A stretch of 21,950 bases of DNA from a virus. Positions 11,873-21,950 of this stretch are shown here, in pieces. How positions within the stretch are numbered: the stretch's first letter is position 1; every line of letters begins with the position of its first letter. Position numbers and translations under genes: made by a program. Under the pieces are notes generated by a model. That model made no database searches and was not told the origin of the DNA. It saw nothing but the letters and a program-made list of their open reading frames with translations. The stretch lies in the IMG/VR virus record IMGVR_UViG_3300033141_002206, positions 1 to 21,950 of that record; one strand, given 5' to 3'.

Positions 11873-12286
11873 TTAATTCCACTGAGTAGCGAGTTCTATA
11901 CTACCATCACCTAGCCGACCTAAAGTCTTTACTGAAACACGAACACGAATGCCGTGCTCAAAATCTTCAGCAGTGAGTGCCTTAACCACCAGCCCACTAC
12001 CAATCAATACTGCTCCACCAATGGCGATCCAATTAGCAGGGGTGCGTGTCGGTTCGAGTTTGCCGCCACGAACTGGTTTGCTTCCGATAGCGTTAGAATT
12101 GTTTGTACCAATCATTTCGAGAACAACGTTCTTTTCAACTACGACCGCATCTGCGGCATCGGCACCAAATACCTGAATAGAAAGCTGAGGCGTAACAGTG
12201 GTTTCGAAATAATTCCGACCAGTGTGTGGTCCGTAAATTTCGACCAGAATGTCGTCTACGTCTTTTCCAAGAAGGCTGTGGCTCAT
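11873..12286 (-). CDS. Small virion-type protein, short paralogue (137 aa)
   Basis: This is the insert-free version of the downstream 249-residue protein. The two align along their whole lengths apart from the module missing here after TRTPANWIAIG. It is predicted to be mostly beta, has no signal peptide or membrane segment, and contains the conserved YGPHTGRNYFE and SNAIGSKPVRGGK segments. GAGAG precedes the ATG at a suitable distance, and a putative late promoter lies 33 nt upstream, which supports expression with virion genes. The molecular role is unknown; a tandem duplication followed by gain (or loss) of a module explains the pair. Confidence 0.75.
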   Translation of the reverse strand: MSHSLLGKDVDDILVEIYGPHTGRNYFETTVTPQLSIQVFGADAADAVVVEKNVVLEMIGTNNSNAIGSKPVRGGKLEPTRTPANWIAIGGAVLIGSGLVVKALTAEDFEHGIRVRVSVKTLGRLGDGSIELATQWN

Positions 12287-17671: not shown

Positions 17672-18505
17672 ATGCCGACTATGCCCACGGGTGGACCAAA
17701 CGCTGAACTCACTCAGCCAGCCGACCACGAAACCAATACACCAGAGACACATCGCCTGCTGGAACGCATGTACCATGACAATTTTATTCGTCTTGGTGGT
17801 TCTAGCATCCCTGTCCATCTGGAAGACGATGACTACAGCGTAGCGTGGCGTATGGCAGTGGACTGCTACCGCCAAATGGGTAGTGGCTCCGTCTACAAAG
17901 CATGGACAGTAATTCATACAGACCCGACCGTTCAGGAATACATCTTGGATGAGCGTGTGGATAACGTGATTAAAATCTGGAGAAGCCGTGGACTCTTCGG
18001 AGGACAAGCCGGTGGCTCGGGTGCCTTTGAAAGTTTCGGCGCAGCCACAGCCAACACACTGCTTCGTGGAGGCATTGGGCAGAACGGCGCATCCTTCGAT
18101 TTAGTATCCTATGATTTGGTTCTCCAGTATCAAGAAACCCTAGACCGATTATTCGCCCGGGAAATGCAATTCGTATTCCGTACTGAAGCCAACTCATTAT
18201 ACCTTCTCCAAGTTCCACAGGCTCCCGAAGAAATTCTGGTCGAGTCTATGGTCCTTAAATCGTACATCGAATTACTCAAGGATCACTACGCCGCACGTTG
18301 GCTCCGTGATTACCATCTCGCTGAAATGAAAATTACGCTCGGCGAGAAGTACCGTGTGTTCGCGACCATTCCGGGTGCACAGGGTGGTACCACTATGAAG
18401 GGTGAGCAGTTGGTATCGGAAGGAATACAAGACAAGCAACGGCTCGAAGATGACCTACTTCTTTACGTCGATGGTGGTATGGTACCGCAACCGATTCGGG
18501 GATAA
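17672..18505 (+). CDS. 13: Neck protein, T4 gp13-like
   Basis: This 277-residue protein fits the gp13 neck family of T4-type phages, which seals the DNA-filled head at the portal and receives the tail. The family-like parts are an N-terminal LEDDDYSVAWRMAVDCYRQ region and, most clearly, the C-terminal segment with WLRDYHLAEMKITLGEKYR, the IPGAQGGT loop and GEQLVSEGIQDKQRLEDDL (about 208-268). T4 gp13 is 309 residues, so the length is close. Gene order (followed by gp14- and gp15-like genes) agrees. GGAGAA lies 8 nt before the ATG. Distant homology, judged by pattern, leaves some uncertainty. Confidence 0.8.
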   Translation: MPTMPTGGPNAELTQPADHETNTPETHRLLERMYHDNFIRLGGSSIPVHLEDDDYSVAWRMAVDCYRQMGSGSVYKAWTVIHTDPTVQEYILDERVDNVIKIWRSRGLFGGQAGGSGAFESFGAATANTLLRGGIGQNGASFDLVSYDLVLQYQETLDRLFAREMQFVFRTEANSLYLLQVPQAPEEILVESMVLKSYIELLKDHYAARWLRDYHLAEMKITLGEKYRVFATIPGAQGGTTMKGEQLVSEGIQDKQRLEDDLLLYVDGGMVPQPIRG

Positions 18506-18508
18506 ATC

Positions 18509-18631
18509 ATGAAGTGGCTTGACAAACTTAACGAAAGAGCACCAGACGACTTTAAGCTCAACCTATTACACACTGTGTTCTGGGCTGTGATCATTGGTGT
18601 CGGGTTTGGTGTCGTGGTGGTGCTCGGATAA
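18509..18631 (+). CDS. 40-residue single-pass membrane peptide between gp13 and gp14
   Basis: The frame runs from ATG 18509 to TAA 18629-18631, whose last base is the first base of the gp14-like start (TAATG). The first 20 residues are polar and charged (MKWLDKLNERAPDDFKLNL) and residues of about 21-40 form one membrane helix (HTVFWAVIIGVGFGVVVVLG). The GATAAATC context before the ATG gives only a weak ribosome site; coupling to gp13 translation is likely. The exact fit between flanking genes supports a real gene. The role is unknown. Confidence 0.7.
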   Translation: MKWLDKLNERAPDDFKLNLLHTVFWAVIIGVGFGVVVVLG

Positions 18632-19887
18632 TGCCTAAGTTTACACCAAAAAATCCATTCACTTGGTTCGCTAAAGACACGGACGGTCCTTCCCATTTCG
18701 GAAACCAAACCAAAATGAGCCGATTCACCAGCGACCTTATTAAGATGCACATCGATATGGGTGGCGTCGATGTCAATGTGTACCGATTCAAAGGAACGTT
18801 CGTTCAGGACGAAGACGAATTCGGCGTTAAGAAAGACCCGCACGGCGTCGATACCAACGACGAAGAAAACCTATTTGACGTGGACGACCAACGAGAGAAT
18901 CCATTCGGTCCGAAACACGAAGGACCAACCGATGTTGGATCATTCTTGGGCGTTCAAGATACCGTACTAAACGAAAACCGCGACCGCGAATATGACTTCG
19001 ACGAGATTCCGGTTCTGCGTGTAACCTATACAATCAGCCAAAACGAATTGGAGTACGCACGATTCGGTATGGCTCTGGCAAACGATGTACTGACAATCGA
19101 AGTCCACACCGAAGAAATGGAAAAGCAATGCGAACGCCGACTAGCACCGGGTGACGTAATCGAGATGCCCCACCTGCGTGAAGTGGGAATCGACGGACGT
19201 GTCGCCAACAAATGGTATGAAGTAAGCTCAATCATCTGGTCCCCGACCGGTATCGATGTGTCCTACGCACGCCACGTGTCCGCAATCGTGCTACGCCCAA
19301 TGCGTCACCAGCAAGAATTCCTCGACCTCTTCCATCGCATGGACGAGTACGGGAAGAATCTTGCCGAACAGATGTCGAACGTCGATGCCATGCTGTCGAT
19401 TACCCAAGCCAACCAAGAGAAGGCTCGCGAGTACGTCAACACTACATGGTTCGACACAACCCTGTTATACTTCTGCCCCGACGACCCAAGCCGCCATCCT
19501 TACCGATGGACTGGCGACGGTGTGCCTGATAATGGCGAGCCGGTTACACAGGGAGCAGACTTCCCATCCGCTCCAGCCCCGGGTGACTGGTTCCTCCGTG
19601 TTGACTTTGTCCCTAACAGACTTTATCGCTTCACCGACACCAACCGTTGGAAACTGATGGAGAAAGATACCAAGCGTGAATGGCAACCATATAACTGGGT
19701 CGTCCAGCTACGCGAGTTCATGTCCGACCGAAGTGAAGAAGACAGAGAACGTCCATGGGAACTGAAGAGTATCCACGACGTATTCACCAGTCGTCACGAC
19801 CGTTCCGATCTTGCCTACGAGGAGAAGACCGAGAACAAGGAACCCTACGAGGTTAAGGAGAACAAGGGAGAGTTGAAAGGTTCATGA
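18631..19887 (+). CDS. 14: Neck protein, T4 gp14-like, with extended C-terminus
   Basis: This 418-residue protein resembles gp14, which with gp13 forms the head-tail connector neck. Matching patterns are SDLIKMHIDMGGVDVNVYRF near the N-terminus, the ARFGMALANDVLTIEV segment, and LAPGDVIEMP...NKWYEV, all in the gp14 order. T4 gp14 is about 256 residues. The extra C-terminal part (about 265-418) contains a PGDWFLRVDFVPNRLYRF...RWKLMEKD domain, which I associate with longer gp14 versions of other T4-type phages, and then a highly charged Glu/Lys tail. The start follows the membrane peptide with a 1-bp overlap, and the stop overlaps the next start (ATGA). Confidence 0.8.
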   Translation: MPKFTPKNPFTWFAKDTDGPSHFGNQTKMSRFTSDLIKMHIDMGGVDVNVYRFKGTFVQDEDEFGVKKDPHGVDTNDEENLFDVDDQRENPFGPKHEGPTDVGSFLGVQDTVLNENRDREYDFDEIPVLRVTYTISQNELEYARFGMALANDVLTIEVHTEEMEKQCERRLAPGDVIEMPHLREVGIDGRVANKWYEVSSIIWSPTGIDVSYARHVSAIVLRPMRHQQEFLDLFHRMDEYGKNLAEQMSNVDAMLSITQANQEKAREYVNTTWFDTTLLYFCPDDPSRHPYRWTGDGVPDNGEPVTQGADFPSAPAPGDWFLRVDFVPNRLYRFTDTNRWKLMEKDTKREWQPYNWVVQLREFMSDRSEEDRERPWELKSIHDVFTSRHDRSDLAYEEKTENKEPYEVKENKGELKGS

Positions 19888-21221
19888 AACTCCAGCACAT
19901 AATGTATGAGGCGCACGAACCATCTGAGAAAGCCAAGTTGTTTCATCAGACGGCGGATACCCAACGTGGACCACCAGAAGCTACGATGCTCAAACTACAA
20001 AACCTCATCGGTGGTGGTGTATTCTCCTTTGCGATAGAACATGTCGGAGACATCACACATCGAATGGCTCAAAAGTTTGACTGGGCTAAAGGGCAACATG
20101 GCATCGTACAGGACAAAGTGGAAAAGACACTGCGAACTCTGGAACATCCCTACGGATTTGATAAAGAGATGCAGGAAAACTTTGAGAGTAATTTCAGATT
20201 CAATACTGAGCAGGGAAGAATGCCATACGATACCTACGAAGGGTTCGAAGGTGCCGCGAGAGGACTTTCGATGCTCTATGCCCGCGAGCATAACAAGATT
20301 CCTGTGTTCAATGCAGCACAATGGCATGCCAGACAGGCAGCAATTGAATTGGGATACTGGAATTTCTCGAAAGCCATCACGCATCTAAAATGGCTCAAAG
20401 ACCTCTGCGATGACGAAGAGCGGTATGACCATGAGGTCGCTCAAGTAACTATAGGGGAGGATGCCGATAGTGGTTTCTACCTGACACAGTTAACTGGCCG
20501 TGGTCCAACCATCTACCCGCTACCAACCAGTGCAGAAAAATATGACGACATCGATTCTCCGAAACGTGGTGGCGCGGATGTTGAAGTACGGGAAGATGAA
20601 GGGACGTGGTACCACGGCTCACCAGAGATACAGAAACTCGGTGATGAGTTCGAAAACCGAACCATCAATATAGACTATTTGACCGACCCTAAGAGATGGC
20701 TGAAGATTCAGGACATGCTCAACCGATATGAAAGCGGCTCCGATGAATACATGAACCTCTTAGACGCTGCGGCAAAATTACGGGCGAACAAGAAAGTACG
20801 GGCTCCGGTGTTCCTGAGCAACAAGCATCCGGTGGCTAACACCTATGCGGATGACCGCCGAGCGTTCGACTATCAGAGTGCCGTACCCGGCGTCGCCTCA
20901 GTAGAAGTAGGCGATGGGAAAACATTAACCATCAACGGACATGGCCAGAATTTCCGAGGGATTTCAATCAACTCGGTACGCGAGGGATTACGCAAAGCCG
21001 GAATTGACGACGAGACTATCAACAATGAAATCCAGAAATTCTCTCATCAAATTCGCGGTGATGGTGGAACGATTTCTACTACCTCCCTTGCAGCTATCGT
21101 GGATGATCTGGGTTTCGACATTATCGACGTAAGAGGGATTAAAGATAATTACATGGGTGACGGCCCGCCTGCTACGGTTCGCATGGTCATGAATCCATCA
21201 CTGATTAGGATAAACAAATAA
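19884..21221 (+). CDS. Two-domain protein with C-terminal ADP-ribosyltransferase-like domain (445 aa)
   Basis: Residues of about 1-215 form a mainly helical region of no recognised family (it includes EHPYGFDKEMQENFES and AARGLSMLYAREHNKIP). Residues of about 240-445 resemble the ADP-ribosyltransferase domain found in phage polyvalent proteins: TWYHGSPE at 241-248, then VFLSNKHPVANTYADDR at 309-325, a long insert, FDIIDVRGIKDN at 411-422 and a final VMNPSLIRI strand at 435-443. By family analogy His244 and Tyr321 would hold NAD; a third catalytic residue is not clear. It overlaps gp14 by ATGA and gp15 by one base, so it should be made late and in step with them. It may be packaged and injected like T4 Alt; this is inference. 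Confidence 0.7.
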   Translation: MKLQHIMYEAHEPSEKAKLFHQTADTQRGPPEATMLKLQNLIGGGVFSFAIEHVGDITHRMAQKFDWAKGQHGIVQDKVEKTLRTLEHPYGFDKEMQENFESNFRFNTEQGRMPYDTYEGFEGAARGLSMLYAREHNKIPVFNAAQWHARQAAIELGYWNFSKAITHLKWLKDLCDDEERYDHEVAQVTIGEDADSGFYLTQLTGRGPTIYPLPTSAEKYDDIDSPKRGGADVEVREDEGTWYHGSPEIQKLGDEFENRTINIDYLTDPKRWLKIQDMLNRYESGSDEYMNLLDAAAKLRANKKVRAPVFLSNKHPVANTYADDRRAFDYQSAVPGVASVEVGDGKTLTINGHGQNFRGISINSVREGLRKAGIDDETINNEIQKFSHQIRGDGGTISTTSLAAIVDDLGFDIIDVRGIKDNYMGDGPPATVRMVMNPSLIRINK

Positions 21222-21950
21222 TGAAACCTGATTCGAGCCCATTAACAGGACTGAAGAGAAAGCCATACTTCTACGATGCTCAGTTTAAGCGACTGATCGT
21301 TCAGGTGCTCGCTGCGTTCGCCGGTTACCAAGTTCGTACCGGTGTTCAACGCGATGGCAAACATCACTTCATGGATACGCCCGTAATATACGGAGCCATG
21401 GATCGAGCCGTGGGTTATATCCTACAAGGTGGCTCTGAAAACACCGTTGCCTACCTGCCTATCATGTCTATCATCGATACTGGATACTCGCAAAAAGCTG
21501 AATGGCGTCAGAACCCCGTGCACGTTGAAAAATTACAGTTCGTCGAACGAGCCCGCGATCCCGACGGAAAGCTCATCGTCGGACAACCCGGAAAGCACAC
21601 AACCGTCGAACGCTCCATGCCCGTACCGTATGAAGTGTCATTCGAACTGGCTATCTGGACTCCGAATAAAGACCAAGCATTTCAGTTGATAGAACAAATT
21701 GGCGTAGTATTCAACCCCGAACTGGACATCGCATTGTCCAACGGTATGGCGGACTGGGCATTCCTGTCTACCCTGAACTTCGATGGCGATATCAAAATCG
21801 AAAGCGTACAGGCAGATGGCACCAACTCTGACCCCTTTACCGTTCACTCGATGTCATTCAATACCGTAATGTGGCTGTCCCCACCCGTCAAGGTTCTGGC
21901 GACAAAGAACATCCAAGAAATTCATATACCTATTCTGGACATGGGGAACT
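21221..21950 (+). CDS. 15: Tail sheath stabiliser/completion protein, T4 gp15-like (3' end outside window)
   Basis: The frame starts at ATG 21221 (TAATG with the preceding stop) and stays open to the window end, 243 codons. It has the gp15 layout: KPYFYDAQFKRLIVQVLAAF near the start, a short HFMDTPVIYGAMDRAVGYI segment, and YEVSFELAIWTPNKDQAFQ followed by LIEQIGVVFNPELD. In T4, gp15 (272 residues) caps the tail tube and sheath and joins the tail to the neck. An AGGATAA ribosome site is present. Position directly after gp13/gp14-like genes agrees with the T4 order. Confidence 0.88.
   Translation, partial: MKPDSSPLTGLKRKPYFYDAQFKRLIVQVLAAFAGYQVRTGVQRDGKHHFMDTPVIYGAMDRAVGYILQGGSENTVAYLPIMSIIDTGYSQKAEWRQNPVHVEKLQFVERARDPDGKLIVGQPGKHTTVERSMPVPYEVSFELAIWTPNKDQAFQLIEQIGVVFNPELDIALSNGMADWAFLSTLNFDGDIKIESVQADGTNSDPFTVHSMSFNTVMWLSPPVKVLATKNIQEIHIPILDMGN

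Follow-up and report, generated by a model that had tools for sequence, protein, structure and literature searches.

The window, a stretch of 21,950 nucleotides from an IMG/VR virus record (IMGVR_UViG_3300033141_002206), derives from an uncultured contractile-tailed phage that is T4-like in its structural module only; the head module is absent from the fragment. A gene for a two-domain protein of 445 aa (19884..21221, +) follows a head-tail adaptor gene in the gp13 position (17672..18505, +; phrog_211, 1.5e-24) and a neck/virion structural gene in the gp14 position (18631..19887, +; phrog_11591, 1.3e-31), and precedes a gp15-type sheath stabilizer gene that extends past the window end (21221..21949, +; PF16724, 2.5e-22; phrog_11196, 2.2e-42). 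An earlier note on this DNA had described the protein as encoded between gp14 and gp15. The gp15 assignment stands through PF16724, whereas the gp14 label, like that of gp13, is positional, given from gene order with matches to phrog_11591 and phrog_211 and not from a direct gp13 or gp14 model. The nearest cultured matches of the gp14-like protein are in the jumbo myoviruses PA5oct, Atu_ph07, Phosso, and Munch; its PA5oct homolog is annotated in the record as a virion protein found by mass spectrometry, and the gp15-type product has 34% identity to a PA5oct protein also seen in mass spectrometry. The two-domain ORF starts at ATG 19884, overlapping the upstream ORF (18631-19887) by 4 nt at its stop, and the downstream ATG begins on the final base of the two-domain ORF's own stop codon (21221). 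These overlaps with both flanking virion genes agree with the earlier note and support the translational coupling that it proposed. Every motif named there lies in this ORF: YHGS at residues 243-246, FLSNKHPVANTYAD at 310-323, DIIDVRG at 412-418, and NPSLIRI at 437-443. A search for the T4 late promoter TATAAATA found 14 one-mismatch sites compared to 14.3 expected, thus no excess, and PADLOC returned no matches.

Two full-length relatives on IMG/VR contigs (L001 and L002; 72% and 69% identity in the best segment) have the identical gene order, with dN/dS values for the two-domain gene of 0.21 and 0.14, and a position-matched relative also occurs in a 103-kb contig; the ORF is therefore not a chance one. 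Its rate of evolution is about three- to fourfold that of the gp14-like neighbor (dN/dS of 0.21 versus 0.05). A shortened form is found in L072, where the gene is flanked by the same neighbors and retains the leader (MKIQELM) and the linker element GPTIYPLP, while the helical domain between them is absent; the helical domain is therefore optional. In the window, the linker covers residues 199-237 (20478..20594, +) and contains GRGPTIYPLPT; GPTIYPLP is kept in L072 just before the ADP-ribosyltransferase (ART) domain, and the linker is partly deleted in L002. The same interval is occupied differently elsewhere. In PA5oct, the homologous gp14-like and sheath stabilizer genes are joined directly, both products being present in virions by mass spectrometry according to the record, and in Atu_ph07 an endolysin gene occupies the interval. 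The window gene thus seems to have been inserted into a virion operon, and from the three arrangements we infer that the interval between the neck and sheath stabilizer genes is a place of cargo gene insertion.

Residues 238-445 (20595..21218, +) are assigned, by sequence comparison and a predicted structure, to a divergent ART of the polyvalent-protein type (ART-PolyVal, in the H-Y-D clade with Tox-ART-HYD2 relatives). With the whole protein as query, Pfam, PHROGs, and PDB sequences returned no usable match, and the Pfam model PF18760 did not match it even at E<=10. This miss reflects the library threshold and is not a property of the clade; a distant family member, L073, scores 18.8 bits with PF18760 against a cut-off of 31.2. 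We collected the family by scans with conserved C-terminal patterns, which retrieved L072 at 65% identity and L073, L074, L067, L068, and L069 at 33-37%. They also retrieved L070 and L078, canonical polyvalent ARTs (PF18760 at 3.7e-17 and 1.7e-7) that bridge to Pfam; L078 aligns with the window domain over the domain length (BLASTP, 3e-13). An HMM built from seven PF18760-positive domains, with the window family excluded, picks the window ORF from 127 frames (E 2.2e-6) and gives the domain 24.4 bits, compared to at most 5.9 across 1000 shuffles (best shuffle E 0.76). Comparison by hhalign of the nine-member window family with the seven ART-PolyVal domains gave 98.2% probability (E 6e-14; 0.4% for a control with the helical domain), although two of the seven, L070 and L078, were fetched with patterns drawn from the window family, so that their likeness is partly selected.

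The predicted structure leads to the same class. Full-length AF2 prediction from three sequences left the C-terminal half unusable, and we used instead a model of the ART domain from nine sequences (pLDDT 88.6, pTM 0.83), which has the strand and helix order expected for an ART. A Foldseek search of viral models (BFVD) gave nine matches at E<=0.001 (1.8e-7 to 9e-4), four of them named polyvalent ARTs; the named matches are mostly ART-PolyVal. Against the PDB, the top match, the ADP-ribosylating toxin ParT, was not significant (E 0.24). The earlier note had recognized an ART-like C-terminal half and proposed comparing it with known folds by profile and structure; the HMM, hhalign, and L078 results uphold that recognition, and the predicted model takes an ART fold by its BFVD matches, the PDB match being non-significant. 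Two inserts, at about residues 255-306 and 360-405, are specific to the family. A DUF6074 match in this half (E 0.011) fell below the cut-off and was disregarded. Among the genome contigs we found no relative of the ART subfamily, and searches of cultured phages with the ART half of the window protein, L067, L069, L073, or L074 gave no significant relative. Another member, L068:2439-5738 (1099 aa), has a GH19 (chitinase/endolysin-like) domain fused to an ART of the window subfamily and looks like a two-activity virion protein.

The candidate catalytic residues are H244 in strand 1 (20613..20615, +), Y321 (20844..20846, +), and D412 (21117..21119, +), each invariant in all nine aligned proteins at identities down to 33%. 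The earlier note had named the first two as candidates, which their invariance supports; the third, D412, aligns with the invariant GxD of ART-PolyVal. D415 and D421 are likewise invariant in the family. In the Tox-ART-HYD2/ART-PolyVal clade, the H lies in strand 1, the Y in strand 2, and the D in strand 5 (PMC5512222). Our AF2 model places H244 in the first strand, Y321 in the helix following the FLS strand, and D412 just ahead of the strand at model numbering 176-183. By its residues, then, the window ART is of H-Y-D type, outside the R-S-E clade of Alt/VIP2; the earlier note had likewise expected a subfamily other than that of T4 Alt, and no R-S-E active site was found.

The N-terminal half (residues about 19-198; 19938..20477, +) holds an unnamed domain that is all-helical in the full-length AF2 model and carries the motif EHVGDITHRM at residues 52-61 (20037-20066, +). 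We find this domain in 57 IMG/VR loci, which include both full-length relatives and some near-identical contigs; an HMM built without the window family matches the window at 3.8e-61. Across 30 aligned domains, 14 positions are invariant: Q27, P31, E32, M35, E52, H53, G55, D56, H59, R60, K78, Y132, A153, and G157. No relative was found in Pfam, NCBIfam, PHROGs, or PDB sequences, so the domain is undescribed, at least in those libraries, and a fold search with the full-length model retrieved unrelated helix bundles only (E>=0.4). It occurs as a stand-alone protein of about 180-220 aa, preceded in L018 by gp21-22-23 type head genes, and within giant polyvalent proteins carrying PF18760 or LPD domains; by HMM, seven of the 57 loci combine it with an ART in one ORF, two of these belonging to the window's own family. 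Salicola phage SCTP-2 gp47 (MF360958, ASV44062.1, hypothetical) has the domain in common with the window protein (29% over 180 aa, E 5e-15), but there it is C-terminal, behind a putative HExxH metallopeptidase domain, with no ART and outside a neck operon. Three paralogues (phrog_17056/28193; gp48, gp46, and gp45) lie on either side of gp47 at L004:10485-15526. Resemblance of EHVGDL to the MazG motif EELGDLL raised the candidate of a MazG-type NTP pyrophosphatase, which we rejected at an hhalign probability of 0.1, a weak test with one phage MazG sequence.

The earlier note had suggested that this domain could be the packaging or targeting part. That now appears unlikely: the L072 version of the gene lacks the domain, SCTP-2 gp47 has it at the C-terminus, and polyvalent proteins carry it mid-protein, and the conserved stretch is instead the first ~7 residues, MK[LI]Q[HE][IL]M, common to the window, L001, L002, and the helical-domain-less L072. 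We tentatively suggest, at somewhat less than even chances, that the domain (EHxGD[LI]xHR) represents a new effector domain that is injected and may be catalytic, in which case the window protein would pair it with the ART as a bifunctional injected effector.

The conserved start belongs to an N-terminal leader, MKLQHIMYEA (residues 1-10; 19884..19913, +), that we regard as a candidate capsid-targeting leader. In the T4 capsid-targeting sequence, residues 4 and 7 serve targeting and residues 8 and 10 processing (PMC9026906). The window leader ends in EA, with E9 preceded by M7 where I or L is expected, and so has no canonical (I/L)-x-E site; the leader of a far relative, L074 (FEQYISEA; MEPIKFITTTFEQYISEA), resembles the T4 sequence. 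The T4 internal proteins IPI-IPIII likewise have a short N-terminal leader, whose canonical cleavage motif the window leader lacks. Matches to a gp21-type protease are present in all four of the longer contigs with the window ART subfamily, three of them above the Pfam cut-off and that of G005 at E 1e-5 only. A strict T4-like leader begins no ORF of G003, the nearest relative genome. The strict pattern occurs 6 times in G008 compared to 1.2 expected (P 2e-3), and 17 times in G005 compared to 6.4 expected (P 3e-4), an excess inflated by a tandem paralogue array that supplies seven. This array, in a 597-kb contig (L105:17136-19594 and L106:96-506), comprises about seven small paralogues whose leaders (like MIKKFKLFLES) are of the T4 capsid-targeting type, and may be an internal-protein family. 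Leader-like starts are also seen in the gene after gp15 (L001:7502-8044, MRLLELFDK; L072:7933-8439, MKLLELFDK; L002:2830-3291, MSILLELFDR), which has a weak phrog_6387 match in L001 and is possibly a second cargo protein. In other large phages, small ART-like proteins (YHGS/YHGT) near helical-domain genes start with T4-like leaders (L048:6488-6940, MQSFSLWLEN; L063:9056-9514, MTFKEYFFKE).

We consider it quite likely that the two-domain protein is packaged in the particle, as the earlier note proposed; packaging in the head followed by injection is plausible on the indirect grounds of the late-gene position, the polyvalent company, and the gp21-type protease of related genomes. As in polyvalent proteins, two disparate domains (helical and ART) share one polypeptide next to the PF16724 and phrog_11591 neighbors. 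Our preferred reading, which we hold to be fairly likely, is a virion-associated host-takeover protein with an H-Y-D ART and a separate helical domain, packaged, injected, and ADP-ribosylating a host macromolecule. The protein would be translated together with the late neck genes and ride in the particle, with the head as its probable location and its first ten residues as guide, and would enter the host cell along with the DNA. Early in infection the ART would transfer ADP-ribose from NAD+ to a host macromolecule, and the helical domain would either be a second effector or serve in target recognition.

An active ART might instead stay unpackaged; synthesized late alongside the neck proteins, it would act in the infected cell as infection ends, its targets being, for instance, those of the host or of a competing phage. 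Translational coupling shows synthesis with the neck genes and nothing more, the window leader departs from the gp21 site, and G003 has no strict leader, all of which favors this alternative; we nonetheless think it unlikely, since relatives of the helical domain lie within polyvalent proteins thought to be injected (PMC5512222) and ARTs close to head genes are usually interpreted as packaged (PMC9503650). Still less probable is a catalytically dead ART fold with a structural accessory role in the neck or tail. The position between two structural genes, the strong divergence from PF18760, and the two inserts would suit such a role, but H, Y, and D are invariant, relatives occur in other contexts such as the GH19 fusion of L068, the direct joining of the PA5oct genes argues that neck assembly in that phage does not depend on the protein, and the gene evolves faster than its gp14-like neighbor. 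That the C-terminal half is no ART and its motif likeness convergent, as the Pfam miss and the PDB fold search might suggest, is very improbable given the agreement of the HMM, the profile-profile comparison, the bridge sequence L078, and the BFVD matches.

The packaged, injected ART that we favor has points of reference among known systems. It has in common with ART-PolyVal (PF18760)/Tox-ART-HYD2 (Iyer et al. 2017, PMC5512222) the motif order, the H-Y-D residues, and the profile-profile match, and members of that clade are similarly encoded alongside virion genes and fused to other domains; unlike them, it falls below Pfam detection, has two family-specific inserts, and is no giant polyprotein but a small protein of two domains. 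T4 Alt resembles it in the proposed working, as an ART made late, carried in, and acting early, but Alt (Alt/VIP2, head-packaged and injected) is of the R-S-E clade and has a different gene position, and packaging is here proposed from the genes. It has been argued that packaging into heads is common among phage ARTs, with about 44% of them so judged by context (PMC9503650). Head-packaged phage ARTs have thus been proposed before, and the window protein adds a divergent variant to this class; new are an ART subfamily below Pfam detection, its fusion to an unnamed domain, and the spread of that domain. ARTs carried in phage heads are a proposed general route to immediate host takeover. To our knowledge, T4 Alt aside, only a few of them have been tested. 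The window protein is a compact example with two domains and a defined candidate active site, L072 provides a natural version without the helical domain, and PA5oct an empty-site comparison; the analysis also points to a widespread helical domain that the searched libraries do not name.

We also note several other features of the window and its relatives. In L001:11275-13296 and L002:6559-8610, a protein of about 680 aa that starts MDM.EEIN.ILRLAGLPPQLDEA follows the sheath gene, with a histidine-phosphatase-like gene a few genes beyond. A VWA-domain protein (window:15734-16474, minus; PF00092, 7.5e-6; phrog_7371, 6e-46) adjoins the neck genes, and adjoins the two-domain locus also in L001 and L072. 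Four large proteins are encoded at window:2-10642 (minus), three of them repeat-rich (e.g. TAGAGNTTGDGG) and three of the four without a PHROG match; these are probably fibers. Finally, window:11113-11862 and 11873-12286 (minus) are adjacent paralogues with the near-identical N-terminal sequence MSH.LLGKD.DD.LVE.YGPHTGRNYFE.
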